From assembly GCA_016218305.1 (NCBI GenBank), contig JACREJ010000034.1, positions 1 to 36,885 of the forward strand: DNA of 36,885 nt, in the 5' to 3' direction. The position numbers and the translations under genes were made by a program. The stretch is from Gemmatimonadota bacterium (GTDB taxonomy: Bacteria > Gemmatimonadota > Gemmatimonadetes > Gemmatimonadales > Gemmatimonadaceae). The number at the start of each line of letters is the position of its first letter. Position 1 is the first letter of the stretch. Below are positions 6,379 through 30,771 of this stretch, in pieces. Under the pieces are notes generated by a model, which ran no database searches, was not told the DNA's origin, and was given only the letters and a program-made list of their open reading frames with translations.

Positions 6379-6828
6379 ATGGTCCGCACCACCAAGTTTG
6401 CCGCGCCCGTCTTCGGGCTCCGCCGCGAGATCGACAAGCTGTTCGAGGACACCTTCGGGAACGTTGCGGCCCCCCTGCTCTCCAGTAACGGCTGGCTGCC
6501 CGCCGTGGATGTCAAGGAAACGAGCGACGCGCTGCTATTCGACCTCGAGATGCCCGGCGTGGCGGAGGACCGGCTCGAGATCACCTGCGAAGGCGGCGTG
6601 CTCGCCATCTCCGGCGAGAAGTCAGCCGTCAAGAAGGAGGGTGACGAGGGCAAGTGGCACATCGTCGAGCGCACCTTCGGCTCGTTCCGCCGCTCGTTCC
6701 AGCTGCCGACGAACGTGCACGAAGACAAGATCGAGGCCACGCTGACCAACGGCGTGCTGCACCTGCGCGTGCCCAAGATGGAGCTGCCGAAGCCGAAGAA
6801 GATCGAAGTGAAGGCAAGCACGAAATAG
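6379..6828 (+). CDS. Hsp20/alpha-crystallin small heat-shock protein
   Basis: 149 residues. An N-terminal arm of about 40 residues is followed by the alpha-crystallin domain (about 40-135), which includes PAVDVKETSDALLFDLEMPG and the closing strand TNGVLHLRVPK. The tail has a PKKIEVK segment in place of a clear I-X-I motif. An ATP-independent holdase that keeps unfolding proteins soluble in the cytoplasm. The ribosome site GGAGG at 6370-6374, 4 bases from the ATG, fixes the start; an upstream ATG at 6355 has none. It stands alone, diverging from the signalling operon, and is preceded by a sigma-54-like promoter. Its stop codon runs into the repeat array that follows. Confidence 0.95.
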   Translation: MVRTTKFAAPVFGLRREIDKLFEDTFGNVAAPLLSSNGWLPAVDVKETSDALLFDLEMPGVAEDRLEITCEGGVLAISGEKSAVKKEGDEGKWHIVERTFGSFRRSFQLPTNVHEDKIEATLTNGVLHLRVPKMELPKPKKIEVKASTK

Positions 6829-6961
6829 AGAGACAACAGAGAAACAACAGAGAGACAACAGAGAGACAACAGAGGTCACTGCTGTCCGCACGTCGAAACC
6901 GTCTCAGAGACCGTACTGTTGTCCCTCTGTTGTTTCTCTGTTGTCTCTCTGTTGTTTCTCT
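6827..6961. repeat. Inverted arrays of 11-bp tandem repeats between convergent genes
   Basis: Left arm 6827-6870 holds four tandem 11-bp units of form AGAGRRACAAC. Right arm 6918-6961 holds four units of the complement (GTTGTYYCTCT). The arms can pair over about 44 bp, with a 47-base loop. The left array starts inside the hsp20 stop codon (6826-6828), and the right array ends at the last base of the permease stop codon (6961-6963). It probably ends transcription of both convergent genes. The tandem composition and exact abutment to both stops are unusual for a simple terminator. Confidence 0.9.
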
Positions 6962-7782
6962 TACTTGAACCCACCAAACGCCAGTCCCCTGAGAAACGCT
7001 TTCTGCGCCACGAGGAAGACCACCAGCACCGGCACGAGCGCCGCGACGGCCGCCGCCATCTGCCACGGCCAATTGGCGTAGTACATCCCGTGGAACGATG
7101 CGACGCCGGCCTCGACCACACGCAGGTTGGGTGAGCGCGCGACGATGAGCGGCCAGAGCAGCGCCTTCCATGCGTCGATGAAGGCGAACAAGGCCACCGT
7201 GGCGAGGGCCGGACGCGCCAGCGGCAACGCCACCCGCGTGAACACCTGCCACTCCGATGCGCCGTCGAGCCGCGCCGCGTCTTCCATGTCACGCGGCAGG
7301 GAGAGGAAGTACTGCCGCATGAGGAAGATCCCCCAGGCGGCGACGAGCTCGACGGACACGAGTCCGGCAACGGTGTCCACGAGCCCCATCGCGTCCACGA
7401 TCAGGAACCGCGGCACGAGCAGCGCGATGCCGGGGATCATCAGCGTCCCGAGATAGACGGCAAAGAGCGGCGTGCGCCCGGCAAACCGGTGGCGCGCAAA
7501 GGCGTAGCCGGCCATGGCCGCCGTGATCACCTGCCCCGCCACCGTGGCCGCCGCCAGGATGAGCGAGTTGCGGAAATAGAGCGTGAACGGCAGTGCGGTC
7601 AGCGCCTCGGGGAAATTCGCGAAGCGCGGCGCGGCGGGCAGCAGCGGCGGCGGCGCCTGGTACACCTCGAACTCGTCCATCAGCGCCGTGGACAGCATCC
7701 AAAGGAACGGCGCGACCATCAGCAGCGCCAGCACGAACGCCGCCGCGTAGCCGAGCGCCTGGCGCGCGCGCCGGTCAGGCAT
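6961..7782 (-). CDS. Carbohydrate ABC transporter permease, MalG type
   Basis: 273 residues with six predicted membrane helices, the first at about residues 11-33. The cytoplasmic EAA loop reads EDAARLDGASEWQVFTRVALPLARP (split here by position: EDAARLDGAS then EWQVFTRVALPLARP, about residues 180-205) and docks on the ATPase. Length is standard for MalG-type permeases. It starts within the last 8 bases of the MalF-type gene and closes the sugar operon. Role: inner-membrane half-channel importing an unidentified saccharide delivered by the lipoprotein at 9301-10590. Confidence 0.93.
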   Translation of the reverse strand: MPDRRARQALGYAAAFVLALLMVAPFLWMLSTALMDEFEVYQAPPPLLPAAPRFANFPEALTALPFTLYFRNSLILAAATVAGQVITAAMAGYAFARHRFAGRTPLFAVYLGTLMIPGIALLVPRFLIVDAMGLVDTVAGLVSVELVAAWGIFLMRQYFLSLPRDMEDAARLDGASEWQVFTRVALPLARPALATVALFAFIDAWKALLWPLIVARSPNLRVVEAGVASFHGMYYANWPWQMAAAVAALVPVLVVFLVAQKAFLRGLAFGGFK

Positions 7783-13836: not shown

Positions 13837-14181
13837 CAACCGTCGGGGAAGCGTCGGCCCAAAGTTCGCACGCGGCGCACCGGGTCACAATGCGTCATGC
13901 CGACGCCGGCGCGGCCTGCGGAGCTCCCAAGATGACGGAAATGTCATCTCGGCGTCATCCTCACGTTGCCAACCACGTGACAGACTCCAAGGACGAGGCG
14001 ATGTGTGAGCCGGCGTCATGCCGTCCTCTCGCGCCGCCAAGCCACGACCGTATTCGCCCCCCGGGCACGTGGAGCACGGGTCCCGCCCGCATCGCATCCG
14101 GATGCACGGCGGGTGACGCGTTGGAAAGGCCCTGGGCGCCGGTGCCTGGGGCCGGCTATCACTCAAGGGGGCATACACGCC
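13837..14181. promoter_or_regulatory. Divergent regulatory region between the sugar operon and the mtrA-like gene
   Basis: 345 bases without a convincing gene. It must hold the promoters of two outward operons. The clearest signal is the dyad at 13930-13949. GCGTCATGCCG occurs twice (about 13891 and 14012) and GCGTCATCC once (about 13952), so the GTCAT word is enriched near the dyad. No high-quality sigma-70 hexamer pair was found. A GGGG stretch at 14168-14171 may serve as the ribosome site of the cytochrome gene. Confidence 0.5.
13930..13949. promoter_or_regulatory. CusR-box-like dyad
   Basis: AGATGAC-N6-GTCATCT is a perfect 7-bp inverted repeat. Its core ATGAC-N6-GTCAT has the same half-sites and spacing as the E. 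coli CusR/copper-sensor box (ATGAC-AANNTT-GTCAT). A CusR-like regulator is encoded at 17768-18439, immediately after the operon this site precedes. Regulation of mtrAB by that regulator is inference. Confidence 0.55.
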
Positions 14182-15096
14182 ATGCGACGTGCTATGAGGA
14201 GATGGGGGTTCGCGGTGGCCACACTGGCCCTGCTGCCGCTCATCGCAGCATCAGCGGCCGGCGCCCAGCAGGTGGATTGGGAACGCCTCAATCCCGCATT
14301 CAAGGGCGCCACGTTCGTCAACAACGACAAGACGTGCCAGGGCTGTCACGAAGAGATGGACCACAAGTTCGGCCTGAGTGCGCACGCCGGGGCATTCGCC
14401 GCAGGCAAGACGGCGCTGAAGGGGAGCTGTGAGTCCTGCCATGGGCCGCGCAGCAAGCACGTCGACGACCCGAAGCCCGGATCGGAATGGCGCTCCCTCA
14501 GCAAGGCCCAGCAGTCCGGCATCTGCATGCAGTGCCACGCGGGCGGCAGTCGCATGACATACATGACGGGCGCGCACCTCGCCGGCGAGGTGAGCTGCAC
14601 CTCGTGTCACGCCGCCAAGGCGCCTCGGAGCCAGACGGCGGTGCTTGCGCGCGCCCAGGCAACGGAGACCTGCTACCGCTGCCATGCCACCGCGAGGGTG
14701 CAGATGGCGAAGACCTCGCACCATCCAGTGCGCGAGGGGCGGATGGACTGCGCGTCGTGCCACAACGTGCACGGTTCGAATCCGGCGCTGCTGAAGACGG
14801 CCTCGTTGAACGACACCTGCAACAGCTGCCACACCGAGAAGCGCGGCCCCTTCCTGTGGGAGCACGCCCCGGTCCGCGAGAGCTGCGCAACGTGCCATGA
14901 CGCGCACGGCTCGACGAACCGCAAGCTGCTCAACAGGAAGGAGTCGTTCCTCTGCCTGTCGTGCCACTCGTACGGCGGACACATCAACCTTCCGCGGTAC
15001 AACCGCACGAGCAACCCGTCCGGCGAAGGCTGCGTGAACTGCCACATGACGATCCACGGGTCGCAGCATCCGTCGGGTCCGAAGTTTACCCGGTAA
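14182..15096 (+). CDS. MtrA/DmsE-family decaheme c-type cytochrome
   Basis: 304 residues. A signal peptide ends near AAGAQQ (about residue 28). Ten CXXCH motifs start at about residues 52, 83, 115, 139, 164, 190, 213, 235, 258 and 284, covering the full mature protein. Length and heme number match the MtrA/DmsE/PioA group, close to the 333 residues of Shewanella MtrA. Function from the family: a periplasmic heme wire that sits inside an MtrB-type barrel and passes electrons across the outer membrane. The MtrB-like gene follows by 13 bases. An inner-membrane donor (CymA type) and an outer-surface partner (MtrC type) are not in the window. The start at 14182 is chosen for the signal peptide; ATG at 14194 is possible. 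Confidence 0.93.
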   Translation: MRRAMRRWGFAVATLALLPLIAASAAGAQQVDWERLNPAFKGATFVNNDKTCQGCHEEMDHKFGLSAHAGAFAAGKTALKGSCESCHGPRSKHVDDPKPGSEWRSLSKAQQSGICMQCHAGGSRMTYMTGAHLAGEVSCTSCHAAKAPRSQTAVLARAQATETCYRCHATARVQMAKTSHHPVREGRMDCASCHNVHGSNPALLKTASLNDTCNSCHTEKRGPFLWEHAPVRESCATCHDAHGSTNRKLLNRKESFLCLSCHSYGGHINLPRYNRTSNPSGEGCVNCHMTIHGSQHPSGPKFTR

Positions 15097-15109
15097 GGAG
15101 ATCCAGACC

Positions 15110-17575
15110 ATGCGCAACTTGATTGCAAGCTTGACGCTGGCTGCCCTGCCGGTCGTCGCGTCCGCTCAGGGAGTCGCCGCCAAGGCGTCCCCTGCGCCGA
15201 ACGGGGGACAGGTCACGATTGGCATCCAGCAGGTGGACAACAACACGAATTCGAGCGCCTTCACGGAATACCGCGACTTGCGTGACGGCCGTACGCCGCT
15301 CGCCTTCACGTACCACACCCTGAGCGCCAGCGGCCTCTACCTCGACATCGCGGGCGCCGATGTCACGCGGCGCGACCAGAGCCTCGGATTCACCGCCGGC
15401 AAGCCCGGCATCTGGCGCATCCGCGCGACGTGGGACGAACTGCCGCACGACCTGAGCCATAAGGCGAAGTCGCCGTACGCAGCGACGGCGAAGGGCGTGC
15501 TCGACGTGCCGTCCACGATGGCGATCACGTTCAAGAAACTGGGCACGGGCGCGGCCGACGCGGCCAACGTGCAGGCGAGCGATGCCATCGCGGCGGCCTA
15601 CCTGCAGCAGTTCGCGAAGCCGGTGTCGCTGGGTACGACCTCGAAGAACGGAAGTTTCGGCCTGCAGTACAGCGGCATCAACTCCATGAACCTGTCGTTC
15701 GGCTACGCGCACCGCGAAAAGTCCGGAAGCCGCATTGGCTACGGCCCCATCGGCGACCGGCCGCCGCGTTCGCTCAACGTCCAGTTCGCCGAACCCGTGG
15801 ACTTTGCGACGGGCGACCTGACCGCCGCCGCCGAGCTCGTGCGGCCGACCTATCAGGTGCGCGCCGAGTACCTGCTGTCGCAGTTCGAGAACGAGATTGA
15901 CGTGCTCACCTGGCGCAATATCTGGGCGTCCGGCCCATCGGGCGCCTCGTACGACACGTGGGATCGTGCGGTGTCGGTCTACGGCCGGCGTCCGCTCGCG
16001 CCCGACAACCGCTACCAGAGCGTCACGCTCTCGGGCGGCGTGGCCCTTCCCTTCGCCAGTCGGCTGACGGGCAGCGTGTCGCGCGGCACCATGGAGCAGG
16101 ACGGCGCGCTGCTGCCGTACGCCTACGCTAACGACGTGCTGGCCAACAAGACGCTGCCGCGCAGCAGCACGCAGGGCAAGATGGAAACGACGGCGCTGTC
16201 CGCCGAGTACTCGATTTCGCCGCTGCCCCGCATGAACCTGCGCGCCTTCGCCCGGCACTACGCGCTCGACAACCAGACGCCCTCAGCGCATTGGCAGTAC
16301 GTCACCCAGGACGCTGCGAACATCAACGGCACCGTGTCGTACGTGAACAAGCGTGTCAATGAACCGTTCGCGTGGGACCGCCAGAATTTCGGCATCGAGA
16401 CGACGATTCGCGTGCCGTTGCTGAAGGGCAGCGTGATCCTCGGCTTCGAGCGCGAGGACTTCGGCCGGGAACGGCTCGAGGCGGCGGCAACGGAGGAAAA
16501 CATCCTTCGCCTCGCGTGGAATGGCCGGCCCGCCCGGTGGCTGTCGGTGCGCGCGAAACTGCTCCGCGGCAGCCTCGACGCCGGCGAGTACGACTGGAAG
16601 ATGCCGAGCCACTCGTACTGGTACACGCCGACAGAAGCGACCGACAACAACAACCCCCAGTTCGCCTTCGAGAACCACCCCGACATGCGGTCGTTCACGA
16701 TGACGGACCGCGAGCGCACCCAGGCGGATTTCACGATTACCGTGACGCCCAACGACAAGCTTTCGGTGTCCACCCGCTTCAAGGCGAAGTCTGATGACTT
16801 CGCCTCCGACGTCACGTCCATTCAGCCACTGCTCGGCCTCACCGTGGCGGATAACCAGGCCCGCACGCCGGGCAACCAGCTTGGCCTGCTCAAGCGGTCG
16901 CAGCAGCAGCTGTCGCTCGATGCCACCTACGCGCCGAGTGCGCGCGTGGGGCTCAGCGCCTCGTACGGCTACGACCTCGGCACGTCGGACATGAAGAGCA
17001 TCGAGTTCAACGAGAACAACCGCCTGAACCCGAGTGCCGTGAATACCGCGTCGCTGGGCCCGTGGACGCGCGCCACGAGCCAGTGGACCGCCGACTTCGA
17101 CGACCGCAACACGTTCATGATGGTGGGTGGCACGTTCGAACTCGTACCGGGCAAGGTGACCGTGGCCGCCAACTACACGAATGCGGCCGCGAACATGGAC
17201 ATCACGTACGGCGGCTTCGGCGCCGTGGACTTCACGGGCACGCCGTTCGCGTCGAACCACGAGTTCAGCTTCACGTCGCCGCCGACGGTCGAGCAACGCA
17301 ACCAGTCGCTGGACGTGTCCGTCCAGGCGCCGCTGTTCGGTCGCGTGGACGCCCGCGTCGGTCTGCGGTACGAGAAGTTCACACTCGAAGACTGGCAGCA
17401 GAGCGCCGGCACGGCGCAGTTCGAGACGGTCGGCAGCGACCTGCTGCTGCGCGACACGTCGCGTTCGCACCAGTGGGGGAACCGGCTGCCGAACATGGGG
17501 TCGTACCTCGCACCTAGCTACAATGGCACCGCCGTCTACGTGGGACTCACCTACGGGTTCGGCGGCATGAAGTAA
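15110..17575 (+). CDS. MtrB/PioB-family decaheme-associated outer-membrane beta-barrel
   Basis: 821 residues with a signal peptide cleaved near ASAQ (about residue 20). The rest is alternating amphipathic strand sequence rich in aromatic and polar residues, as in a large barrel. The regularly spaced segments YRDLRDG, WRIRATWDELPHDLS and GFEREDFGRE fit the MtrB/PioB family. The protein has no cysteine at all, so the N-terminal CXXC pair known from Shewanella MtrB is missing. It ends GFGGMK rather than in an aromatic residue. Ribosome site AAGGAG at 15095-15100 overlaps the mtrA-like stop, so the two genes are co-translated. It would sheath the decaheme protein in the outer membrane. Confidence 0.9.
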   Translation: MRNLIASLTLAALPVVASAQGVAAKASPAPNGGQVTIGIQQVDNNTNSSAFTEYRDLRDGRTPLAFTYHTLSASGLYLDIAGADVTRRDQSLGFTAGKPGIWRIRATWDELPHDLSHKAKSPYAATAKGVLDVPSTMAITFKKLGTGAADAANVQASDAIAAAYLQQFAKPVSLGTTSKNGSFGLQYSGINSMNLSFGYAHREKSGSRIGYGPIGDRPPRSLNVQFAEPVDFATGDLTAAAELVRPTYQVRAEYLLSQFENEIDVLTWRNIWASGPSGASYDTWDRAVSVYGRRPLAPDNRYQSVTLSGGVALPFASRLTGSVSRGTMEQDGALLPYAYANDVLANKTLPRSSTQGKMETTALSAEYSISPLPRMNLRAFARHYALDNQTPSAHWQYVTQDAANINGTVSYVNKRVNEPFAWDRQNFGIETTIRVPLLKGSVILGFEREDFGRERLEAAATEENILRLAWNGRPARWLSVRAKLLRGSLDAGEYDWKMPSHSYWYTPTEATDNNNPQFAFENHPDMRSFTMTDRERTQADFTITVTPNDKLSVSTRFKAKSDDFASDVTSIQPLLGLTVADNQARTPGNQLGLLKRSQQQLSLDATYAPSARVGLSASYGYDLGTSDMKSIEFNENNRLNPSAVNTASLGPWTRATSQWTADFDDRNTFMMVGGTFELVPGKVTVAANYTNAAANMDITYGGFGAVDFTGTPFASNHEFSFTSPPTVEQRNQSLDVSVQAPLFGRVDARVGLRYEKFTLEDWQQSAGTAQFETVGSDLLLRDTSRSHQWGNRLPNMGSYLAPSYNGTAVYVGLTYGFGGMK

Positions 17576-17592
17576 CCGGCCAGGGCAGGGCC

Positions 17593-17647
17593 CCCACCGC
17601 CCGGGGACGCTGGCTGCATCGCCAGCGCCTCCCGGGACCCGGGTGGG
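17593..17647 (+). terminator. Large GC-rich hairpin after the mtrB-like gene
   Basis: An inner perfect stem CGCTGGC (17608-17614)/GCCAGCG (17621-17627) is nested in an outer pairing of CCCACC (17593-17598) and adjoining CCCGGGG with CCCGGGACCCGGGTGGG (17631-17647). There is no U-tract, so it may act as a pause site or partial terminator between mtrAB and the two-component genes, or protect the mRNA 3' end. Confidence 0.55.
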
Positions 17648-17767
17648 TCGCTAGGTTTTGCAGGTCGACCTACGGTCGGCTGGCGTCCCCTCCTGCGCCT
17701 CGCCGACCGTGCGTGTATCCTGAAACGTCCCGCCCTGCACGGGCACCCCCGAGCCTCTCACGCCGAC

Positions 17768-18439
17768 ATGCGAATCCTGATCGTCGAAGATGAGCGCAAG
17801 GCCGCCGAGTACCTCCGGAACGGCCTGACGGAGTCCGGGTTCGTTGTCGACGTGGCGTACAATGGCGACGACGGATTGCATCTCGCGCTCGAGCAGCCTT
17901 ACGAGCTCATCGTGCTCGACGTCGGGCTCCCCCGGCGCGACGGCTGGTCCGTCCTCGCGTCGATCCGGCGCGCCGGCCGTCACACGCCGGTGCTCTTCCT
18001 CACGGCGCACGATGCCGTGCGCGATCGCGTCCGTGGCCTGGAGGAGGGCGCCGACGACTACCTCGTCAAGCCATTCGCGTTCTCCGAGTTGCTGGCGCGC
18101 GTGCGGTCCATCCTGCGACGGGGTCCGGCACGGCAGCCGGACGTCCTGACCGCCGCGGACCTCGAGCTCGATGTGACGCGGCATCGGGCGACGCGCGGCG
18201 GCCAGCGCCTCGACCTGACGCCCAAGGAGTTCGCCCTGCTGGCGCTGCTGGTACGCCGTCGCGGCGAGGTGCTGTCGCGCACGCTGATCTCGGAACTCGT
18301 CTGGGAGATGCACTTCGACAGCGACACCAACGTGGTGGACGTCGCGATCCGGCGCCTGCGTGCCAAGGTGGATGATCCCTTCCCCATCAAGCTCATTCGA
18401 ACCGTCCGCGGGGTCGGCTATGTACTCAACGAAGACTGA
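17768..18439 (+). CDS. CusR-like OmpR-family response regulator
   Basis: 223 residues. The receiver begins MRILIVEDE; phospho-acceptor aspartate about residue 51 in [12 protein letters not shown]; the conserved lysine lies in [14 protein letters not shown]. The winged-helix domain carries [20 protein letters not shown] and [16 protein letters not shown]. The [16 protein letters not shown] and [14 protein letters not shown] stretches are those of the CusR/CopR/IrlR heavy-metal group. The gene sits about 190 bases after mtrB on the same strand and overlaps its kinase by 20 bases. A likely target site is the dyad at 13930-13949. Confidence 0.93.
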
Positions 18440-19877
18440 GGCGCCGGCGCCTCCGACGGCTGGCTCGTGGTCGATCGCCGGGCGGCTCTCCGGTATCAAC
18501 GCGGTGAAGACGCTGATCATCGTGGCGGTGGTCGGCGGCGTGCTGTACTGGGGCCTGGCGCGTGAGTTGCGGCAGCAGGACGCCAAGCTCGTCGCCAGCA
18601 AGCTGTCGGTGCTCGAGCATCTGGTGTCCACCTACCCGCTCACGTCCGAGGCGATCGAGAGCGAGGTGGAGCACGAGGCCGGCGACGAGGGACCGCTGCG
18701 ATACTTCCTGCGCATCGTCGACGCGTCGGGTCGCGTGGCGCTCGAGACGCCGGGCACGCCGCCGGAACTCGGCGTGACGGCGTTCCCTCCCTTCGCCACG
18801 TCGACGCGCACCACGCTCGAGTGCGCAGAGTGCGTGATGAGCGACGATGCCGCGTACTTGCTGGCCTCGCGACGCACCGCCGGGCTGGCTGGCGCCGGGC
18901 AGATCGGGCTGCAGGTCGCGCTGGACGTCGGCCGCACCAATGGCGCGCTGCGACGCTATGGCTGGATGCTCGCCATCGTCCTGGGACTCGGCGTGGCCCT
19001 GTCCGCCTCCAGCACGTTGATCATTGCCCGCCTCGCAGTGCGTCCACTGCACGAGATCGCCGATCAAGTACGCGCCATCACCGCCAGCCGCCTCGACCTG
19101 CCGCCGCTCTCCGCCCGCCCGTGGCCCACGGAACTGCAGGGACTGGCCGGAGACTTTGACGAGATGCTGACCCGGCTCGGCGATGCGTTCGCACGACTCT
19201 CCCAGTTCGCGGCCGATCTGGCGCACGCCCTGCGGAACCCGATCAATAACCTGCGCGGCAGTGCGGAGGTTGCGCTTGCGCGGACCCGCACCGCCGACGA
19301 GTACCAGCAAACGCTGGGGTCGAGCCTAGAGGAACTCGACCGGCTCTCACGGCTCATCGACGGTCTCCTCTTCATCGCGCGCAGCGAGGATCCCCGACAG
19401 GCGATCGAGCGCTCTACCATCGCCATCCGGCACGAGATAGACGCCGTGCGGGACTTCTACGACGCGCTCGCCGCGGAGCGCGGCGTGGACGTGCGCTGCG
19501 ACGGTGAGGCGACGATCATCGGCGACCCCATGCTGGTGCGGCGTGCCGTCAGCAACCTCCTGGCCAATGCGCTGAAGCACACGGAGCGAGGCGACACGGT
19601 GGAACTCGTCGCGCGGGAGCGCCCCGACGGTGGGGCGAGCGTGGTGGTGCGCGACTCGGGCCGCGGCATCGCTGCGCAGCACCTGCCACACCTCTTCGAG
19701 CGGTTCTACCGCGCCGACGACGATCGGACCGACGCCTCGGGCGCGGGACTCGGCCTCGCGATCGTACGGTCGATCATGCGGCTGCACGGTGGCGAGGCGC
19801 GCCTGGAGAGCGAGGTCGGAGTCGGGACCACGGTGACGCTCGAATTCCCCGCGACCCGCGACCCCCGGCCCGCCTAG
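18420..19877 (+). CDS. CusS-like heavy-metal-type sensor histidine kinase
   Basis: 485 residues. First membrane helix about 31-46, periplasmic domain about 47-180, second helix about 182-204, HAMP about 205-258. The HisKA box [18 protein letters not shown] has histidine at about 269; in CusS-type kinases this reads FSADLAHELRTPINNL. The ATPase domain has [17 protein letters not shown] and GAGLGLAIV. The periplasmic domain carries a C-X2-C pair (about residues 135 and 138, ECAEC), which could bind metal or respond to redox state. The ATG lies inside the regulator gene, 20 bases before its stop. Confidence 0.92.
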
Positions 19878-19931
19878 CCAGCACCAGCAGCCGGTCCGCG
19901 CCGCACCACGCGCGGCCTCCCAGCAAGGAAA

Positions 19932-19963
19932 GAGCCGACGCGGACAGGTCGTCGCGTCGGCTC
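19932..19963 (-). terminator. Terminator hairpin between the kinase gene and ccmH
   Basis: GAGCCGACGCG (19932-19942) and CGCGTCGGCTC (19953-19963) form a perfect 11-bp stem with a 10-base loop. Read on the minus strand it is followed by TTTCCTT, so it most likely ends the ccm operon. It may also work as a roadblock for the convergent two-component transcript. Confidence 0.75.
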
Positions 19964-19986
19964 CGTCGAGCTTCCCGTGGCGCCCC

Positions 19987-20517
19987 TCAGTCGTTCTCAC
20001 CTGACGGAGCAGAACCGGCGGCGGCCGGCGCCGCCGTCCACTTGCGCACGATGAAGACCAGGAAGACGGCACCGCCGAGCACCAGCAGCACTGGGAGCGC
20101 GTAGATCACGATGTTGAACCCGTGCGCCTGCGGCTCGAGCAGGATCCACTCGCCGTACTTGGAGACGAAGTACGCCTTCACCTCGTCGGGCGACTTGCCG
20201 GAGGCAAGCTGCTCTTTCACCACCATGCGCATCTGCTGCGCCAGTTCGGACGGCGAGTCCTGGATCGCCACGCCCTGGCAGACCGGGCACCGCAGCTGGG
20301 CCGCCACCGCCGAGGTGGCGGCGTCGAGCACCGGGTCGTTCTTCTGCGCATCGGTGAGGGTCCCCTGCACCTTCACGCGCAGCGCGCCGCTGTCCTGCGG
20401 CGCCCCCTGCGGTGCCGCCGGCAGTTCCGGGGCCTGTGCCGCCAGCGCGCCGCTCACCAGCGTCAGCGCCGCCGCGGCACCCATCAGGGCGCGCGAGAGA
20501 GTCCGTGCCTGCGTCAT
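19987..20517 (-). CDS. ccmH: Cytochrome c maturation protein CcmH
   Basis: 176 residues. Signal peptide to about residue 27. The CcmH domain (about 55-135) has the redox motif LRCPVCQ, with cysteines at about 77 and 80. A membrane helix lies at about 135-158. A reductant and chaperone for apocytochrome haem attachment on the periplasmic side. A separate low-complexity Gln/Pro stretch precedes the domain. The ATG shares ATGA with the stop of the thioredoxin-like gene. No CcmI-type TPR extension or separate ccmI is visible. Confidence 0.94.
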   Translation of the reverse strand: MTQARTLSRALMGAAAALTLVSGALAAQAPELPAAPQGAPQDSGALRVKVQGTLTDAQKNDPVLDAATSAVAAQLRCPVCQGVAIQDSPSELAQQMRMVVKEQLASGKSPDEVKAYFVSKYGEWILLEPQAHGFNIVIYALPVLLVLGGAVFLVFIVRKWTAAPAAAGSAPSGEND

Positions 20518-21134
20518 TGGGCCTTCCCCGCCTTGGTGTTCGCGGCCGTGTCCGCGACCGGCGCGGGCGCAGCCGGCAGCGCCGCGGCCAACAGCGAATC
20601 GACCTTGAATCGCACGACACCCTGCGTCACCGGACCGGTGTGCTTGTACGCCACGCGCCCGCTGGCGTCGAGGAAGAACGTCTCGGGCACGCCGTACAGG
20701 CCGTAGTCGATCGCGACGCGTGCGCCGGGATCATCCACCGACGGATAGGACTGGCCGCCCATCTCCGCGATCCACGCCGTCCCCTTGTCGGGGACGTCGT
20801 TGTACAGCACGCCGAGGAACTGCACCGGCTTGCCGGCATACGACTGCGCCACGTCGGAGAGCGCGCTGTGCTCGTCACGGCAGGCCAGGCACCACGAGGC
20901 CCAGAAATTCAGGACCACGACCTTGCCGCGCAGGTCGGTGAGGCGCACCGTGTCACCTGCAGGCCGGGCGAGGTCGCCCTGCCCTGGCGCGAAGACCTGC
21001 AGCGCAAACGTGGGCGCCTCGCGCCCCGGCAGGGGCGACGGGATGCTGTTCGGGTCGCGCGTCAGCCCCCAGGCGAGGAGCCCGATGACGGGCGCGGCGG
21101 TGGCCGCGGCAATCGAGGCTCGTTTCCAGTTCAC
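20514..21134 (-). CDS. ccmG: Thiol:disulfide interchange protein CcmG/DsbE-like
   Basis: 206 residues from a GTG start. One N-terminal membrane anchor (about 6-25) is followed by a periplasmic thioredoxin fold with the active site NFWASWCLACRDE (cysteines about 82 and 85). The cis-proline region lies in YGVPETFFLDASGRV. It reduces the CXXCH cysteines before haem attachment. The GTGA overlap with the ccmF stop supports the GTG start. The active-site CLAC differs from the more usual CPTC/CVPC of CcmG but occurs in ResA-like relatives. Confidence 0.9.
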   Translation of the reverse strand: MNWKRASIAAATAAPVIGLLAWGLTRDPNSIPSPLPGREAPTFALQVFAPGQGDLARPAGDTVRLTDLRGKVVVLNFWASWCLACRDEHSALSDVAQSYAGKPVQFLGVLYNDVPDKGTAWIAEMGGQSYPSVDDPGARVAIDYGLYGVPETFFLDASGRVAYKHTGPVTQGVVRFKVDSLLAAALPAAPAPVADTAANTKAGKAQ

Positions 21135-23131
21135 GGCTGGCCCTCCGCGAGCGCGCTCGCGCGCACCGCCGGCGCGTCCGACGTCCGTTTACGCCCCGGC
21201 AGCACGCCGATGAGCGCGCCGAGGCAGAGCACGAAGCCGCCCAGCCAGATCCACGGCACCAGCGGCTCCCAGATCACCTTGACCGTCACGTTCGAGCCGT
21301 CCGGCTTGAACGCCATCAGGTTCAGGTAGATGTCGCCGCGCAGCGTGCTCTTCACGTCGGGGGTCGGCACCGGCGCTTCCTGCGTCGGGTAGTAGTTCAT
21401 CCGCGGCTCGATGGTGGCGCGCACGCGGTCGCCGTCCATCCACTCCATGGTGGCGCCGATGACCTGCCGCTGCGGCTCCTCGCGTCCCCACGCCGCCTTG
21501 AAGCGCAGCGTGTGCCCTGCCACGGTGATCGACTCGCCGGGCCTGAGCGTGGCTTCCTGCTCCTGCTTGAACGTGGACGAGGCGGCGACGCCAAGCGTGA
21601 CGAGCACGACGCCGATGTGCGCCGTGTAGCCGCCGTAGCGGCGGCGGTTGCCGCTCACGAGGCGCGACAGCGCCACGAGCCACATCTCGCCATGCGCCCG
21701 CACGCGGGCGTTGGCGCCCACCACGAATTCCCGGACATTGACGCCGAGCGCGAAGCCCGCAAAGAGGAACGCGAGCACGGAATACACCCCGCGCGCGCCG
21801 GCCAACAGCGCCGCCGCGGCGACGAGCACGCCGAGGACCGCGCCCGGCAGCAGCTTGCCCTTGAGCTCCGGCCCCGCCGCCTTCTTCCACGGCAGTGCCG
21901 GCCCCACGCCCATCAGGAAGATGAGCGCCACCATCATTGGCAGCGTCATCTTGTTGAAGAAGGGCTCACCCACGCTGACCTTCACGCCGCGCACCGCCTC
22001 GGCGACCAGCGGGAACAGCGTGCCGATCAGCACCGTGAACATGAAGACGGTGAAGAACAGGTTGTTCAGCAGGAACGCCGTCTCGCGCGAGAGCGGCGCA
22101 TCGAGCCGCCCGTCCGATGCCAGCTTGTCGCTGTTGCCCGCCACCAGGAAGAGCGTGGCGACCAGCACGATGCCGATGAAGGCGAGGAAATAGTAGCCGA
22201 TGGTGCCCTGCGTGAAGGCGTGCACCGAGGAGATGATCCCCGAACGCGTGAGGAACGTGCCGAGGATCGTGAGCACAAACGTGCCGACCATCAGGTTCAG
22301 GTTCCACAGCTTCAGCATGCCGCGGCGCTCCTGCACCATCACCGAGTGCAGGTACGCGGTGCACGTCAGCCACGGGATGAAGGAGGCGTTCTCGACGGGA
22401 TCCCACGCCCAGTAGCCGCCCCAGCCCAGCACTTCATACGACCACCACATCCCGGCGATGATGGCGGCGGTGAGGAAGGCCCAGGCCGTGATCGTCCAGC
22501 GGCGCGTGACCTTGATCCAGCCGTCGTCGGCGACTTCGCCGGAGAGCATGGCGCCCACGGCGAAGGCGAACGGCACCGTGAGTCCGACGTAGCCGAGATA
22601 GAGCAGCGGCGGATGCACACCCATCAGGATGTGGTTCTGCAGGAGCGGATTCGGCCCCGGGCCGTCGAACGGCACCGGGAACACCGGCAGGAACGGATTG
22701 GCCGGCCCGACGAGCAGGATGTGGAAGAAGAGCGCGACGATGAGCAGCGTCACGGCCGCGTACGGCACCAGGTTCCCTTCCCGCTTGCGGTTGAACCAGA
22801 CCACCGCGGCCGCGTACATCGCGAGCACCCACGCCCAGAAGACGATGGAGCCCTCGAGCGCCCCCCAGAGCGAGATAATCGTGTAGAAGGTCGGCGTCGC
22901 CCGGCTGCCCACCTGCGCCACGTAGGAGATGCTGAAGTCGTGCGACACAAGCCCGTAGATCAGGGCCAGCGTCGACAACGTCACGAGCGCGAAGTTGGTG
23001 TAGACGGCCGCGTAGAGGTACATCAGCCAGTCGCGGCGGCCCTTGCGCACGGCGATCGGGCCGAAGATCGCCCCGAGCGTCGTGACGGCCAGCGCGACGA
23101 CGATGGAGTTGAAGGCCAGCAGGCGCGTCAT
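21131..23131 (-). CDS. ccmF: Cytochrome c haem lyase subunit CcmF
   Basis: 666 residues, the usual CcmF length, with many membrane helices. The haem-handling WWD-type motif WGGYWAWDPVENAS is at about residues 237-250. Histidines in NHILMGVHPPLLYLG (about 166-180) are the usual haem-coordinating positions. It takes haem from CcmE and attaches it to apocytochromes with CcmH. The ATGA overlaps at both ends show tight coupling with ccmE and ccmG. Confidence 0.96.
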   Translation of the reverse strand: MTRLLAFNSIVVALAVTTLGAIFGPIAVRKGRRDWLMYLYAAVYTNFALVTLSTLALIYGLVSHDFSISYVAQVGSRATPTFYTIISLWGALEGSIVFWAWVLAMYAAAVVWFNRKREGNLVPYAAVTLLIVALFFHILLVGPANPFLPVFPVPFDGPGPNPLLQNHILMGVHPPLLYLGYVGLTVPFAFAVGAMLSGEVADDGWIKVTRRWTITAWAFLTAAIIAGMWWSYEVLGWGGYWAWDPVENASFIPWLTCTAYLHSVMVQERRGMLKLWNLNLMVGTFVLTILGTFLTRSGIISSVHAFTQGTIGYYFLAFIGIVLVATLFLVAGNSDKLASDGRLDAPLSRETAFLLNNLFFTVFMFTVLIGTLFPLVAEAVRGVKVSVGEPFFNKMTLPMMVALIFLMGVGPALPWKKAAGPELKGKLLPGAVLGVLVAAAALLAGARGVYSVLAFLFAGFALGVNVREFVVGANARVRAHGEMWLVALSRLVSGNRRRYGGYTAHIGVVLVTLGVAASSTFKQEQEATLRPGESITVAGHTLRFKAAWGREEPQRQVIGATMEWMDGDRVRATIEPRMNYYPTQEAPVPTPDVKSTLRGDIYLNLMAFKPDGSNVTVKVIWEPLVPWIWLGGFVLCLGALIGVLPGRKRTSDAPAVRASALAEGQP

Positions 23132-23580
23132 GTGGCGGGGCTCTTCATCAGGGACTTGTACATGTCCGACGGGCGTTCACCCTTGGCCGGCGCCTTGTAC
23201 TCGTTGGAGTGCTTCACCATCACGCTGGTGCTCTTGAAGACGCCGTCGTGCCCGTAGCGCCCCTCGACGACGACCCCCTGGCCGTCCTTGAACATCTGCG
23301 GCGGCGCCCCCTTGGAGTGCACCTTGATCTCTCCCGTGCCGTCCGTGACGGCAAAGCGCAGGTCCAGCTTCTGCTCGTCCCAGACCACCGAGCCGGGCTT
23401 CACCTGGCCGCCCAGCCGCATTGGCTTGTCGTAGCCCTCGGCGCCCTTGGCCAGCAACTCCTTCGGCGTGAGGAAGTACACGACGTTGCTGTCGAGGCCG
23501 CCGTAGATGAGCCAGCCGAACGCGATCACGAGGACGCCGACCGCAGCCAGCGCGCCCCACTTGGTCTTCTTCGTTGTCAT
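23128..23580 (-). CDS. ccmE: Periplasmic haem chaperone CcmE
   Basis: 150 residues. N-terminal membrane anchor about 8-27, then the OB-fold. The covalent haem-binding site VKHSNEY has histidine at about 124 and tyrosine at about 128, so this is the common His-type CcmE rather than the Cys-type. A longer frame upstream overlaps ccmD and has no family counterpart; the ATG at 23580 overlaps the ccmD stop. Carries haem from CcmABCD to CcmF. Confidence 0.95.
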   Translation of the reverse strand: MTTKKTKWGALAAVGVLVIAFGWLIYGGLDSNVVYFLTPKELLAKGAEGYDKPMRLGGQVKPGSVVWDEQKLDLRFAVTDGTGEIKVHSKGAPPQMFKDGQGVVVEGRYGHDGVFKSTSVMVKHSNEYKAPAKGERPSDMYKSLMKSPAT

Positions 23581-23735
23581 GTCCTGAACTCTCCCTTGGC
23601 CGCCTGATCGTATTCCGCCCGGGCGCGGCGCACCGATCCCACCGTGCGCACGAGCATGGCCCCGAGCACCACCCACGTGATGACGTACGACGCCACCACG
23701 TAGCCAACACCGCCGCCTGCGATTCCGCTAGCCAT
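23577..23735 (-). CDS. ccmD: Small haem exporter subunit CcmD
   Basis: 52 residues. One membrane helix (about 8-30) is followed by a basic segment VRRARAEYDQ, the usual CcmD pattern. Start ATG lies 8 bases inside the end of ccmC, and its last bases overlap the ccmE start. It stabilises the CcmC:haem:CcmE complex. Assignment rests on position and layout, because CcmD sequences are poorly conserved. Confidence 0.85.
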   Translation of the reverse strand: MASGIAGGGVGYVVASYVITWVVLGAMLVRTVGSVRRARAEYDQAAKGEFRT

Positions 23736-24441
23736 TGTACCCTCCCAACGCCGCCGCCTGGGCCGCATGTTCCGCCGCGCGCTCGTACCGGGCCGCCTCG
23801 TAGCGGCGCCAGATGAACCAGATCGTCAGCAGCGTGAACGCCGCCAGGTTCAGCATCAGCCCGCGCAGGTATTCCGGCGCGAGCCCCCGCGGGCTGCTCT
23901 GGATCTGGTGCAGCGTGCGCCACCACTGCACCGACATCCACACGATGGGGACGTTGATGGCCCCCAGGATGCCCACCGCCGCGCTCCACTGCCCGCGCCG
24001 GTGCGGATCCTCGACAAAGGACCGCAGGGACAGATACCCCACGAAGATGAGGAAGAGCACCAGCGTGCTCGTCAGGCGCGCATCCCAGGACCACCAGACG
24101 CCCCACGTCGGGCGCCCCCAGAGCATGCCCAGCACCAGCGTGAGGCCGCAGAACAGCGACCCGACCTCGGCGGCCGAGGCGGCCAGCAGGTCGGCGCGCT
24201 CATCGTCTTTCCACAGGAAGTAGAGCGATGCCACGAGGACGACGCCGAACGCGCCGAACGTCACCCAGGCGGCCGGGACGTGCACGTACATGTTCTTCTG
24301 CAGGTGTCCCATCATCGCGTCGGCCGGCGACGTCAGGACGGAGTAGACCTGCACGAAGATGAAGAAGAGGAACGCGAGCCAGCCGAGCCAGTTGGGGGCC
24401 GGCTTGGGCGGTCCGAATTGACCACTCGGTGCGGGGGACAT
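23728..24441 (-). CDS. ccmC: Haem handling protein CcmC
   Basis: 237 residues with six predicted helices. The WWD motif WGVWWSWDARLT is at about residues 113-124, flanked by histidines in MYVHVPAAW (about 54) and in WWRTLHQIQ (about 185). It presents haem to CcmE at the outer face of the inner membrane. Located between ccmB (6-base gap) and ccmD (8-base overlap). Confidence 0.95.
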   Translation of the reverse strand: MSPAPSGQFGPPKPAPNWLGWLAFLFFIFVQVYSVLTSPADAMMGHLQKNMYVHVPAAWVTFGAFGVVLVASLYFLWKDDERADLLAASAAEVGSLFCGLTLVLGMLWGRPTWGVWWSWDARLTSTLVLFLIFVGYLSLRSFVEDPHRRGQWSAAVGILGAINVPIVWMSVQWWRTLHQIQSSPRGLAPEYLRGLMLNLAAFTLLTIWFIWRRYEAARYERAAEHAAQAAALGGYNG

Positions 24442-24447
24442 GGGGAA

Positions 24448-25134
24448 TCAGACCTCGATCACGTATTCAAAGGCCAGGAAGGTTGCCACCAGGAAGATCA
24501 CATCAAAGATCACCAGCATCTGCATCCAGGCGCCCGCCTCATTCATGACATCGCCGAACAGCAGCGCCTTGGTTGCCGACATCGCGGCCAGCAGCACCGG
24601 GATGAGCATCGGGTACAGCAGGAGCGGCAGCAGCACCTCGCGCGCGCGGCTGCGGCTCGACATGGCGGCATAGAACGTGCCGAGCGACACGATGCCGACC
24701 ACGCCGAGCATCATGATGAAGACGATCAGCGGCCAGGTCGCCGGGATGTCCACCGAGAACAGGACGATCCCCACCGCGACGACGATCACCAGCATCAGCG
24801 TCACGAAGATCAGGTTGGCGATCAGCTTGCCGGCAAAGATCGCCCAGCGTGCGCCCGGGTAGAGCAGCAGCGCCTCGAGGGCGCCGCCGTCCAGCTCCAC
24901 CTGGTACGAGCGGTTGAACGCCAGCACGCCGGCAAAGAGGATCGCGAGCCAGAGCGCGCCGGCCGCAGCATCGTGCAGCGCCTTGCCGTCGGGCCCGAGC
25001 GCGAGGCCGAAGAGCACGAGGATGGTGACGCCGAGCGACGCGACCGAGTTGAACCCCGCCTTGGAGCGCCGCTCCGTGGTGAGGTCCTTCCATACGATCG
25101 CGCGGATGCGCCGGACGTCGTCGTTGAACGCCAT
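24448..25134 (-). CDS. ccmB: Haem exporter permease CcmB
   Basis: 228 residues with six hydrophobic segments. The N-terminal RIRAIVWKDLTTERRSK and the loop LDGGALEALLLYPGARWAIF match the CcmB family. Its ATG shares one base with the ccmA stop (TGATG). It forms the membrane part of the CcmAB ABC complex, which uses ATP to release holo-CcmE. Confidence 0.93.
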   Translation of the reverse strand: MAFNDDVRRIRAIVWKDLTTERRSKAGFNSVASLGVTILVLFGLALGPDGKALHDAAAGALWLAILFAGVLAFNRSYQVELDGGALEALLLYPGARWAIFAGKLIANLIFVTLMLVIVVAVGIVLFSVDIPATWPLIVFIMMLGVVGIVSLGTFYAAMSSRSRAREVLLPLLLYPMLIPVLLAAMSATKALLFGDVMNEAGAWMQMLVIFDVIFLVATFLAFEYVIEV

Positions 25135-25874
25135 CAGGAGATCCCCGCCGCGCCGGCTGGCAGCGTGATCGCCTGCGGCGACGCGCCGTCGTGCGCGAAG
25201 TCGTCGGACGTCGGCGTGTGCACGCGCCCGTCGCGGATGAGCACCGTGCGGTCGAGCACGCCGGCCGCCGGCACGAGGTCGTGCAGCACCACCAGCGCCG
25301 CGCCGCCCGCCGCGTTCAGCTCGCGAATGAAGCCGTTCATGAGCGCGATGCCGGCAACGTCGAGATTGTTGTAGGGCTCGTCGAGCAGCAGCAGACGCGG
25401 ACGCTGGAGGATGAGCCGCGCCAGCGACAGCCGCCGCTGCATGCCGGCCGAGAAGCCGCGCACGCGCTCGTGCGTGACGTGGGTGAGGCCCACCCGCTCG
25501 AGCGCGGCGTCGATGTCCGCCGACGGGAAGCCCAGCATCGTGGCCGCGAACGCCAGGTTCTCGCGCGCCGAGAGGTCGTCGTAGAGCCCCGGCACGTGGG
25601 AGAAGAAGCCCACGTGATGCCGCACGTCATCGCCCGCGGTCTTCACGTTCGACCCGTAGACGAAGCAGTCGCCGGCGGACGCCTTGAGCAGCGTCGCGAC
25701 GATGCGCATGAACGTACTCTTGCCGCAGCCGTTGTGTCCGAGGAGGCCGACCATCTCGCCGGCGCGCACCTGCAGGTTCACCCCGCGCAACACCCAGCGG
25801 GCGCCGAACCGACGCGCCACCCCGCGCGCATCGAGCGCGAGGTCTGGTGACAGGAGGGGGGCTGATGTCGACAC
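25134..25874 (-). CDS. ccmA: Haem exporter ATPase CcmA
   Basis: 246 residues from a GTG start. Walker A GHNGCGKST (about 45-53), signature FSAGMQRRLSLAR (about 140), Walker B LLLLDEPYNNLD, and the switch histidine in VVLHD are intact. First gene of ccmABCDEFGH. A short MSTSAPLLS leader precedes the domain. No strong ribosome site precedes the GTG. A promoter lies about 60-90 bases upstream. Confidence 0.93.
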   Translation of the reverse strand: MSTSAPLLSPDLALDARGVARRFGARWVLRGVNLQVRAGEMVGLLGHNGCGKSTFMRIVATLLKASAGDCFVYGSNVKTAGDDVRHHVGFFSHVPGLYDDLSARENLAFAATMLGFPSADIDAALERVGLTHVTHERVRGFSAGMQRRLSLARLILQRPRLLLLDEPYNNLDVAGIALMNGFIRELNAAGGAALVVLHDLVPAAGVLDRTVLIRDGRVHTPTSDDFAHDGASPQAITLPAGAAGIS

Positions 25875-26715: not shown

Positions 26716-26774
26716 CCGCGTCTCCCATCTCCCATCTCCCATCTCCCCTCTCCCATCTCCCATCTGCCGCTCAC
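26716..26774. repeat. Right arm of inverted 7-bp repeat array
   Basis: Six tandem CTCCCAT units, one reading CTCCCCT (26722-26763), with inner flank CCGCGT (26716-26721) and outer flank CTGCCGCTCAC (26764-26774). Its complement matches the left arm, including both flanks. It overlaps the actF stop codon (26771-26773). Confidence 0.9.
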
Positions 26775-26784
26775 TCGTGAGCGG
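26767..26784 (-). terminator. Hairpin across the actF stop codon
   Basis: CCGCTCAC (26767-26774) and GTGAGCGG (26777-26784) form a perfect 8-bp stem with a 2-base centre, so a compact hairpin overlaps the end of the ACIII operon. On the minus strand it is followed by the purine-rich ATGGGAG array, not by a U-tract, so it may stabilise the 3' end instead of terminating. Confidence 0.45.
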
Positions 26785-28114
26785 GCAACGGCTCCATCGT
26801 CTTCGGATCGCACGGCACCTGCACCTCGTCGCGGTACGGTGACGTCATCAGGAAGACGCGCATCTTGGGGAAGCCATCCATGAACTGGGCGTACAGCCAG
26901 CCGAATGCCCCGAGGAAGCCGACGAAGATCGCCAATTCCCACTTGCCCAGCGGCGGCCCTTCCGCGGCCGCACGCGGGCCGTAGATGGACGGATAGATCT
27001 CCGTGTACCGCGCCAGCCACAGCCCGACGAACGAGCTCGCCGCGAAGAACATCATGCTCGGCGTCCAGACCTTGGCCTTCACGCTCAGCAGGCCGAAGAA
27101 CGGCAGCAGGAACGTCAGCACCGCCGTCGCCACCGTGATGTTCGTCCACGCGCCCGTCAGGCGCAGCGTGAAGAAGTGCGTCTCTTCGGGCAGGTTGCCG
27201 TACCAGATCACCAGGAACTGCGAGAAGGTCAGGTAGCCCCAGAACGCGGTGAACGCGAAGCAGAGCTTGCCGATGTCGTGGTACTGCTTCTCGGTGATCA
27301 GGTCATGCGCATTCAGGTGGTGGTTGAACCAGCGGACGAGGCCGCTGAAGATCATCAGCGCCACCAGCCAGCCGCCCATGAAGACCTGCCACGCGTACAT
27401 CGTGCTGAAGAAGTGCCAGTCGAGCGACATCGAATGGTCCCAGGCCAGCACGCACCAGCCGAGGCCGAACACGAGGGCCATGACCACCGCCATCCATCCC
27501 TGCCGACTGTGCGTGGAGTGCAGTTCGCGCCGCTCCTCGCCGAAGTTGCGGCGCATGGCCGCCCGGATGCCGGCCGCCCAGCGGGCGCCGCCCTCCGGGC
27601 TCACGCCGACATCGAGCCGCACGGACGTCCACACGTACCACAGCTGCAGCGCCACCAGCACGCCCATGACGCCGATGGAGCGCGCCCAGAAGAAGCCGTG
27701 GCTGAGATACAGGTCCTTCTCCGGGATCAGCTCGCCCGTCCCCGGCATGTGCCACCAGGGATAGACGTAGTGCTTGCCGAAGAAGATCGTGACCATCAGG
27801 CAGACGAACGCGAACGGCAGGAAGGCGGCGAAGCCCTCCATGATGCGGATCACCGAGCGCGACCAGCGCGCCGTGGTGATGCGCTGCACGGCGACGAACA
27901 TCACCGCCGCCGACGAGATGGTCGTGAAGAAGAGCCAGTTGACGTGGAACGCCTGCCAGGCGCGGCCGTTGCCGCGGATCATCCCGTAGACGAGCACGGC
28001 GAAGCCGGCCACGAACATGGCGAGAAACGCCTGCTTGATGGCGGCCGGAATGGGCTTGTCGATCGCCGCCAGCACGCGTTCGCGCGACGGGGCGGGAGTC
28101 TCGTGGGCGCTCAT
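26771..28114 (-). CDS. actF: Alternative complex III membrane subunit ActF
   Basis: 447 residues with about ten predicted helices, starting after a cytoplasmic N-terminal segment. NrfD-like quinol-interacting proteins of this type end ACIII operons. The segments WAWDHSMSLDWHF-like (CVLAWDHSMSLDWHFFST) and YLTFSQFLVIWYGNLPEE are characteristic of ActF. It shares one base with the actE stop. It probably helps bind quinol alongside ActC; a functional quinol site in ActF specifically is less certain. It is the last gene of the cluster; no oxidase genes follow. Confidence 0.9.
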   Translation of the reverse strand: MSAHETPAPSRERVLAAIDKPIPAAIKQAFLAMFVAGFAVLVYGMIRGNGRAWQAFHVNWLFFTTISSAAVMFVAVQRITTARWSRSVIRIMEGFAAFLPFAFVCLMVTIFFGKHYVYPWWHMPGTGELIPEKDLYLSHGFFWARSIGVMGVLVALQLWYVWTSVRLDVGVSPEGGARWAAGIRAAMRRNFGEERRELHSTHSRQGWMAVVMALVFGLGWCVLAWDHSMSLDWHFFSTMYAWQVFMGGWLVALMIFSGLVRWFNHHLNAHDLITEKQYHDIGKLCFAFTAFWGYLTFSQFLVIWYGNLPEETHFFTLRLTGAWTNITVATAVLTFLLPFFGLLSVKAKVWTPSMMFFAASSFVGLWLARYTEIYPSIYGPRAAAEGPPLGKWELAIFVGFLGAFGWLYAQFMDGFPKMRVFLMTSPYRDEVQVPCDPKTMEPLPAHE

Positions 28115-28839: not shown

Positions 28840-29329
28840 CGCGCACCTCCACTGCCCCATGCTTGCGGAGCAGCGCCTCGGCGGAACCGAGGCGATCGGG
28901 CGGGCACTCCACCCAGACGCCATAGTCGCCGCGACTGAAGCGCGGGTCGTAGCCGACCATCATGGTAAGGCGCGGGACGCCGGCGTGGATGAAGAGCCCG
29001 GCCACCGTGGACAATGCACCAACCAGCACGAAGACCTCGAATCCGAAGATCGTGTAGGGAATCCACGAGCCGATCGCCTTGCCGCCGACCACGAGGGGCC
29101 AGTAGTTCGACGCCCAGATCGGGATCCAGTAGCCGAACACGCAGCCGGCGAGGCCGCCGAACAGCATGTACATGCGCACCGGACTCTTCGGCGGCTGCAC
29201 CGCATGCTCCAACTCGTGCCGCGGCGTCGGCGTGAACACCGTCACGTCGCCGAGGCGCGCGTGTTTCAGCTCGGTGATGGCGTCCACCGCGCTGTCCAGC
29301 TCCCTGAAATGACCGAGGACGCCGCGCAT
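28829..29329 (-). CDS. actD: Alternative complex III subunit ActD (DUF3341)
   Basis: 166 residues. The MRGVLGHFRELDSAVDAITE N-terminal region and two membrane helices (about residues 60-80 and 95-120) match the DUF3341/ActD family. GYDPRFSRGDYGVWVECPP lies near the C-terminus. Starts at an ATG sharing one base with the actC stop (TAATG). A structural subunit lying beside ActC; no cofactor site. Confidence 0.93.
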   Translation of the reverse strand: MRGVLGHFRELDSAVDAITELKHARLGDVTVFTPTPRHELEHAVQPPKSPVRMYMLFGGLAGCVFGYWIPIWASNYWPLVVGGKAIGSWIPYTIFGFEVFVLVGALSTVAGLFIHAGVPRLTMMVGYDPRFSRGDYGVWVECPPDRLGSAEALLRKHGAVEVRGER

Positions 29330-30759: not shown

Positions 30760-30771
30760 CGTCCGCGCCCC

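Follow-up and report, generated by a model that had tools for sequence, protein, structure and literature searches.

What does an outer-membrane electron conduit do in a bacterium that offers it no evident surface cytochrome, and how would its host control it? The question is raised by positions 14182-17575 of a 36,885-nucleotide stretch of DNA (the window; contig C101, GenBank JACREJ010000034.1) from a Gemmatimonadota genome (G000, assembly GCA_016218305.1; 2.0 Mb in 116 contigs, 91.7% complete), where the genes of a decaheme cytochrome and of an outer-membrane barrel adjoin. The answer that we favour, with a probability of roughly 0.72, is that they encode an MtrAB conduit of a distinct clade, without MtrC, which is made on demand through a dedicated metal- or redox-responsive two-component system and an upstream site. 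The family, the barrel fold, the clade, the conserved linkage and the conserved conduit-specific site were established by computation. The two conduit genes are:

14182-15096, plus strand: mtrA, MtrA-like decaheme cytochrome c of 304 residues (TIGR03508, ten CXXCH motifs, PDB 6R2Q_A)
15110-17575, plus strand: mtrB, MtrB/PioB-like outer-membrane barrel of 821 residues with no cysteine (PF11854, AlphaFold2 model, Foldseek)

A preliminary description of the window had reported a cytochrome with ten CXXCH motifs 13 bases from an 821-residue barrel, had recognised the pair as MtrA and MtrB and had supposed a Gemmatimonadota host; coordinates, motifs, profile matches and structural comparisons agreed with it, and the host was borne out. 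The ten motifs (residues 52, 83, 115, 139, 164, 190, 213, 235, 258 and 284) accompany a signal peptide judged by eye, and 2000 shuffles of the residues gave a mean of 0.10 motifs and a maximum of 2. The cytochrome scored 232 bits on NCBIfam TIGR03508 (DmsE-family decaheme, cut-off 192), and the barrel 280 bits on Pfam MtrB_PioB (PF11854, cut-off 23). Against the PDB, a profile of the clade's cytochromes matched 6R2Q chain A (E = 8.7e-73; the molecule name printed for this chain is a misnomer), four other multiheme matches being far weaker, and the profile of its barrels had a single match, chain B of the same entry (E = 2.3e-27). The AlphaFold2 model of the barrel, built on an alignment of 17 barrels (predicted template modelling score 0.65; mean predicted local distance difference test, pLDDT, 68), contains 25 strands of at least 8 residues and several shorter ones; the crystal structure of MtrB has 26, the first four of them short (PMC7198977; this and the other PMC records cited were available as excerpts). 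Foldseek placed the model closest to 6R2Q_B (E = 4.4e-32, TM-score 0.82 by target length, 15% identity in the structural alignment), with an iron transporter as runner-up (E = 4.9e-10, TM-score 0.43). The assignment of 14182-17575 to the MtrA/MtrB type is thus confirmed by sequence and, for the barrel, also by predicted fold. The preliminary description had also pointed to the cysteine-free barrel: not one cysteine occurs in its 821 residues, but the significance attached to this did not hold. As a sign of novelty it was rejected, the missing CXXC being unremarkable, even if MtrB of gammaproteobacterial metal reducers has an N-terminal CXXC.

Like Shewanella MtrCAB (6R2Q), the window has an adjoining decaheme and barrel, with both chains matched and about 26 strands (PMC7198977); it differs in that no MtrC and, NrfH apart, no CymA was found, and that the conduit has its own two-component system. 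MtoAB and PioAB are likewise MtrAB homologs, from another phylum, and in Gallionella and Sideroxydans MtrAB homologs occur without MtrC (PMC8805035). PioA has an N-terminal extension of about 200 residues (PMC6831781), which is absent here, where the whole cytochrome has 304 residues and its first CXXCH is at residue 52. The Geobacter OmcK/GSU2204 genes, up 1.5-2.7-fold with iron oxides (PMC4070692), are similar in that the cytochrome scored 233 bits on NCBIfam GSU2203, level with the 232 bits of the DmsE model, and GSU2204 is the only other match of the barrel. However, both cut-offs were missed (233 of 325 and 86 of 350 bits), and the Geobacter GSU2204 barrel has a CXXCH, which a barrel without any cysteine cannot have. 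Because neither MtrC nor a CymA-type donor was found, the PioA extension is absent and the GSU2203/GSU2204 cut-offs were missed, the window conduit is, judged from its sequence, a member of the MtrAB superfamily that is neither MtrCAB nor PioAB nor GSU2203/2204.

We then considered its relatives. In a survey of 395 genomes drawn from the Gemmatimonadota, an MtrB/PioB match at E <= 0.001 was present in 36, and in 32 of these it exceeded the cut-off. Among the genomes listed, which do not include 339 without a match, ten belong to the same genus (G000 included), and all ten had one; G000 has a single MtrB/PioB gene, and each of the nine relatives two or three. In the tree, 17 decahemes of the window's type (clade A) were split from 33 other Gemmatimonadota decahemes (type B; L075, called with nine motifs, was excluded) with a branch support of 100/99. 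Clade A comprises members from Gemmatimonadota, Acidobacteria, Deltaproteobacteria (two of them Myxococcota in the taxonomy of the tree tool) and Elusimicrobia, whose cytochromes are 52-92% identical to that of the window (15 aligned). Within the genus, six of the ten genomes have a clade-A conduit, the nearest ortholog being 92% identical in the cytochrome and 80% in the barrel. All 23 clade loci come from metagenome-assembled genomes, 11 of which have titles that point to groundwater. The 17 exclude eight loci (L126, L132, L137-L140, L143 and L144) in which no full decaheme gene could be scored. These loci extend conduits without an adjacent MtrC to genomes of Gemmatimonadota, Acidobacteria and Elusimicrobia.

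Beyond the separate clade, the preliminary description had missed a linked two-component system, an operator-like site and an operon for alternative complex III (ACIII). The two-component genes follow the barrel gene:

17768-18439, plus strand: OmpR-family response regulator of the CztR/SilR/CopR subfamily (TIGR01387, 338 bits, cut-off 279)
18420-19877, plus strand: sensor histidine kinase of the CztS/SilS/CopS subfamily (TIGR01386, 361 bits, cut-off 293, scanned from 18360)

Hydropathy gave the kinase two transmembrane segments with CAEC between them, and CxEC is present in the kinase of all six genus orthologs. The order mtrA-mtrB-regulator-kinase was retained in each of the five same-genus relatives that have a clade-A conduit. 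Two-component genes on the same strand within 3 kb (kinase and/or regulator; kinase only at L129, regulator only at L131) were found at 13 of 17 clade-A loci, compared with 2 of 34 other Gemmatimonadota conduits (Fisher, 4e-7). When the genus was counted once, 8 of 12 clade-A loci had them (Fisher, 7e-5), and when only loci flanked by 3 kb on either side were taken, the counts were 12 of 13 and 2 of 26; contig ends cut these flanks in 4 of the 17 clade-A and 8 of the 34 type-B rows. Five of the 22 clade-A rows were duplicate identifiers (L052, L057, L059, L060 and L085) and were not counted, and two of the 34 type-B rows have no called barrel. On the opposite strand, two-component genes occur at three more type-B loci (L074, L077 and L089), outside the 2 of 34, and kinase and regulator matches occur at the clade locus L138.

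By similarity score, CztR-like regulators accompany the conduits of Gemmatimonadota and Acidobacteria; the clade kinases of Deltaproteobacteria have five or six transmembrane segments, and the Elusimicrobia locus has a 449-residue regulator. Since the regulators differ between groups, the association of conduit and two-component system seems to have arisen, or to have been rewired, more than once. The window pair resembles the CusRS/CzcRS/CopRS class in passing the subfamily models, but it adjoins an electron conduit and not an operon for metal efflux or copper resistance, and its sensor domain has CxEC, whereas CusS has His/Met/Phe sites (PMC10100754). No report tying MtrAB conduits to a dedicated two-component system was found in the limited, open-licence literature searched, and as far as that literature goes a two-component-linked clade without MtrC is new. 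Conduits in Gemmatimonadota are not new as such, because a 2022 survey counted a single Gemmatimonadetes MtrCAB (PMC8805035) and PCC4 porin-cytochrome clusters with cytochrome bc1, that is, conduits linked to a quinol oxidase, have been reported from metagenome-assembled genomes (PMC13264449).

Alignment of six orthologous upstream regions revealed the following element:

13932-13958, plus strand: operator-like site of 27 bp, a 6-4-6 inverted repeat with a direct half-site

Its consensus in the genus is mostly ATGACA-N4-TGTAAT, then a third half-site, GTCAT. At up to two mismatches, the ten same-genus genomes contain seven sites, all at clade-A conduits: one each in G000, G031, G065, G222 and G301, and two in G376, one preceding mtrA and the other in the gap from mtrB to the regulator gene. 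The four same-genus genomes without a clade-A conduit had none, and the reversed pattern, used as a control, had 0 matches in the ten genomes. At up to three mismatches, the window gave one match where 0.00 were expected. The divergent gene upstream of the conduit differs in two of the loci (L124 and L125). Alignment and searches show, in this genus, a conserved, conduit-specific site of operator-like form.

Upstream regions were also searched at L127-L131, L133-L136, L141 and L142. A recurring motif of different sequence was detected in the Acidobacteria loci L128 and L129; G395 (6.5 Mb) has two copies, one ahead of the regulator pair and one ahead of mtrA, G396 has one, ahead of mtrA, and G397 and G398 have none. 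In Deltaproteobacteria (L131, L133 and L141), a third palindrome precedes mtrA in each of three genomes and, in G400, also the gene of a hexaheme cytochrome with an MtrC/F domain (L131), with an imperfect copy about 175 bp upstream; no further places were found in the three genomes. This hexaheme gene (L131 4747-6204; MtrC/MtrF domain 48 bits, cut-off 30) separates mtrA from the two-component genes. In two Deltaproteobacteria, mtrB is followed by the gene of a TauE/SafE-type exporter (L131 10700-11473 and L133 10722-11495), a hint of sulfur chemistry.

As for electron-transfer partners, the preliminary description had found no inner-membrane donor or surface cytochrome next to the conduit. This stands for the immediate neighbours, but the same window also contains an ACIII quinol-oxidase operon, about 9 kb downstream of the conduit, and a set of cytochrome maturation genes:

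19987-25820, minus strand: cytochrome c maturation genes ccmH, thioredoxin-like, ccmF, ccmE, ccmC, ccmB and ccmA (Pfam)
26771-34588, minus strand: ACIII operon, ActA-ActF (Pfam matches for five of six genes)

The operon would encode a pentaheme ActA, a molybdopterin/FeS ActB, an NrfD-like ActC, ActD, a monoheme ActE and ActF. ActD was assigned by name in the profile scan (138 bits), and the gene in the ActF position had no Pfam match; the names ActA-C, ActE and ActF presumably apply, from the gene order. ACIII is a candidate link between the conduit and the quinone pool.

The preliminary description had proposed a search of the genome for multiheme surface proteins and quinol dehydrogenases. 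The scan for heme motifs gave 109 places; in the 100 listed and the contigs read afterwards (C105 apart from 15606-19999 and 36001-43046), no MtrC-like or other large multiheme protein appeared, and no other open reading frame had more than five CXXCH, in a genome 91.7% complete. The assembly contains a single NapC/NirT match, a tetraheme on contig C70 beside NrfA (Cytochrom_C552, 438 bits), so that it is NrfH-like, and no CymA-type quinol dehydrogenase was found. On contig C74, a tetraheme with a lipoprotein-like start (by eye) is followed by 4Fe-4S and NrfD genes. This tetraheme is 69-82% identical in seven of nine relatives (a weak match only in G301, none in G376). FeS and NrfD genes related to this module adjoin the MtrAB pairs of L063, L064 and L077, but their tetrahemes had no detectable similarity to that of C74. 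The module is a plausible inner-membrane partner of the conduit, no more.

All nine genus relatives have a cluster with 12/13-heme and 19-heme proteins (L102-L110; the G222 copy is cut by a contig end) that is missing from the window's assembly. A hexaheme neighbour is present in each of the nine, and tetraheme neighbours also occur; at L103, cytochrome b561 forms the end of the 19-heme protein. When the DNA of L103 was compared with the window's own genome, a dispersed palindromic repeat dominated the matches, and in the stretches read one gene neighbouring the cluster had a 43% match.

The assembly of the conduit, the binding of the regulator to the site, the signal, the partners, the direction and the substrate belong to a model that we infer as follows. 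MtrA would be a decaheme wire running inside MtrB, a barrel of about 26 strands, and the complex would cross the outer membrane without a surface cytochrome of the MtrC type. A kinase of the CusRS/CztRS class would respond, perhaps by way of CxEC, to a metal or redox cue in the periplasm, and the regulator would then bind the site upstream of mtrA and switch on mtrAB, and only this conduit. From the quinone pool, electrons could enter the periplasm by way of ACIII, NrfH or the tetraheme/FeS/NrfD module and pass out through MtrAB to metals, minerals or humics outside the cell. The NrfD-type and NrfH modules and the clusters of relatives tip the balance slightly towards outward flow; the reverse is possible, and reducing and oxidising MtrAB homologs are indistinguishable by sequence (PMC8805035). 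A private regulator also offers a handle, since the inducer of the conduit would reveal its purpose.

Several results weigh against this reading. The barrel scored 209 bits on NCBIfam TIGR03509, under the curated cut-off of 240, which the barrel of the clade member L131 passes with 316 bits. The AlphaFold2 model of the decaheme, computed without hemes, reached a pLDDT of 35 and was unusable, so that the place of the wire inside the barrel is inferred. The comparison of 17 and 34 loci is confounded by phylum, all 34 being Gemmatimonadota. The operator-like site lies 95 bp from a divergent glycosidase-like gene and 223 bp from mtrA, and the motifs were derived from the very sites that they recover, the independent part being the absence of other sites. 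In G399, an Acidobacteria genome with a conduit but no two-component system, the Acidobacteria motif occurs at three sites, with no kinase, regulator or decaheme nearby in the stretches read, and therefore it is not conduit-specific there. Finally, no shared site was found before the conduits of L127, L130, L134, L135, L136 and L142.

A further step, which we regard as doubtful, would make clade-A MtrAB a closed sensor-conduit module, with a private two-component system and its own operator in each of three phylum-level groups and essentially one target. The kinase would read a state made by the conduit itself, which would act as a regulated electron valve or surface-redox probe, with neither MtrC nor a dedicated respiratory chain.

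The main rival, possible although we hold it to be the less likely course, is an inward conduit of the Mto/Pio type, in which the cell would take electrons at its surface from Fe(II) or another reduced extracellular donor and lead them through MtrAB to periplasmic cytochromes, the terminal oxidase or the quinone pool. No MtrC-type partner was found in the parts of the assembly read, as in iron oxidisers without MtrC (PMC8805035), the genome has one complete heme-copper oxidase gene and a further short match, and the ACIII operon lies beside the conduit. However, RuBisCO was not found in the genome, which is a weak point of this explanation, and ABC sugar-type transporter genes suggest a heterotroph. 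NrfHA and the tetraheme/FeS/NrfD module suit outward flow, and one clade relative has a cytochrome with an MtrC/F domain under a similar site.

On-demand control through a metal- or redox-sensing pair could also mean that the conduit serves defence or electron discharge: toxic metal, or over-reduction of the envelope, would be sensed, and metal would be reduced outside or electrons vented without supporting growth. The heavy-metal subfamily models passed by regulator and kinase and the CxEC of the sensor domain point this way, as does the finding of one target per genome (in G376, two sites at one conduit). The box of the silver-related regulator AgrR is also a 6-4-6 inverted repeat with a flanking direct half-site (PMC7380067), the same layout as at 13932-13958; it is the layout, and not the AgrR sequence, that was compared. 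The heavy-metal class is, however, not general in the clade, given the kinases with five or six transmembrane segments in Deltaproteobacteria and the 449-residue regulator in Elusimicrobia, and no metal efflux gene was found among the neighbours scanned. We consider this explanation improbable.

It is very unlikely that the conduit is a relic, lingering partnerless after other electron-transfer genes were lost. The genome has two Cytochrome_C7 matches, compared with 10-20 in the nine same-genus genomes, and 2.0 Mb at 91.7% completeness, compared with 3.0-3.8 Mb; yet all ten heme motifs are complete, neither reading frame is broken, and regulator, kinase and site were retained together with the high identity to the nearest ortholog (92% and 80%). 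Least likely of all is a DmsEF-like module feeding a surface oxyanion or dimethyl sulfoxide reductase, since the DmsE-family model passed by the cytochrome is also passed by other conduit types, and the scanned window genes include no molybdoenzyme besides the ActB-like gene of the ACIII operon.

Other arrangements of conduits and multiheme proteins were observed in the same genomes. One clade-A conduit (L085/L130; L085 1-12198, in G238) occurs with cytochrome b, 9-, 17- and 11-heme proteins, cytochrome b561 and a Rieske match under the cut-off, and another, from Acidobacteria (L142 1344-11886), with relatives of these proteins and a Rieske-like protein; no two-component system was found within 3 kb of either cluster. 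Type-B conduits of Gemmatimonadota are preceded by genes of a Rieske protein, of a fusion of cytochromes b and c and of a small cytochrome c at L072, L074, L075, L076, L077, L078, L079, L082, L083, L086 and L088, a layout assigned by Pfam at L072 and for the Rieske gene of L074, and by gene sizes and heme counts at the other loci. These Rieske/cytochrome b/cytochrome c/MtrA/MtrB strings were rejected as new, as they resemble the reported PCC4 layout (PMC13264449), in which a conduit is likewise linked to a quinol oxidase; PCC4 resembles the type-B conduits, not that of the window.

In same-genus genomes, 23-heme and 40-heme cytochromes adjoin (L113 7901-12927 and L114 7671-12694), and a 34-heme protein is encoded at L111 8243-10810. 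At L116-L119, FeS-like, NrfD-size and 12/13-heme genes are followed by a 624-residue histidine kinase with one CXXCH and, except at L117, where the contig ends, by two regulators; the kinase could sense heme and be coupled to a redox complex. Gene calls outside the window come from a custom script whose starts are approximate (it starts mtrA at 14215). Lastly, a long palindromic intergenic repeat with short ACAACAG/AGAGA units and a predicted hairpin of about -80 kcal/mol lies between convergent genes at 6826-6962 of the window, and a related 120-bp stretch of the relative G031 had 91 matches on both strands of the window genome.

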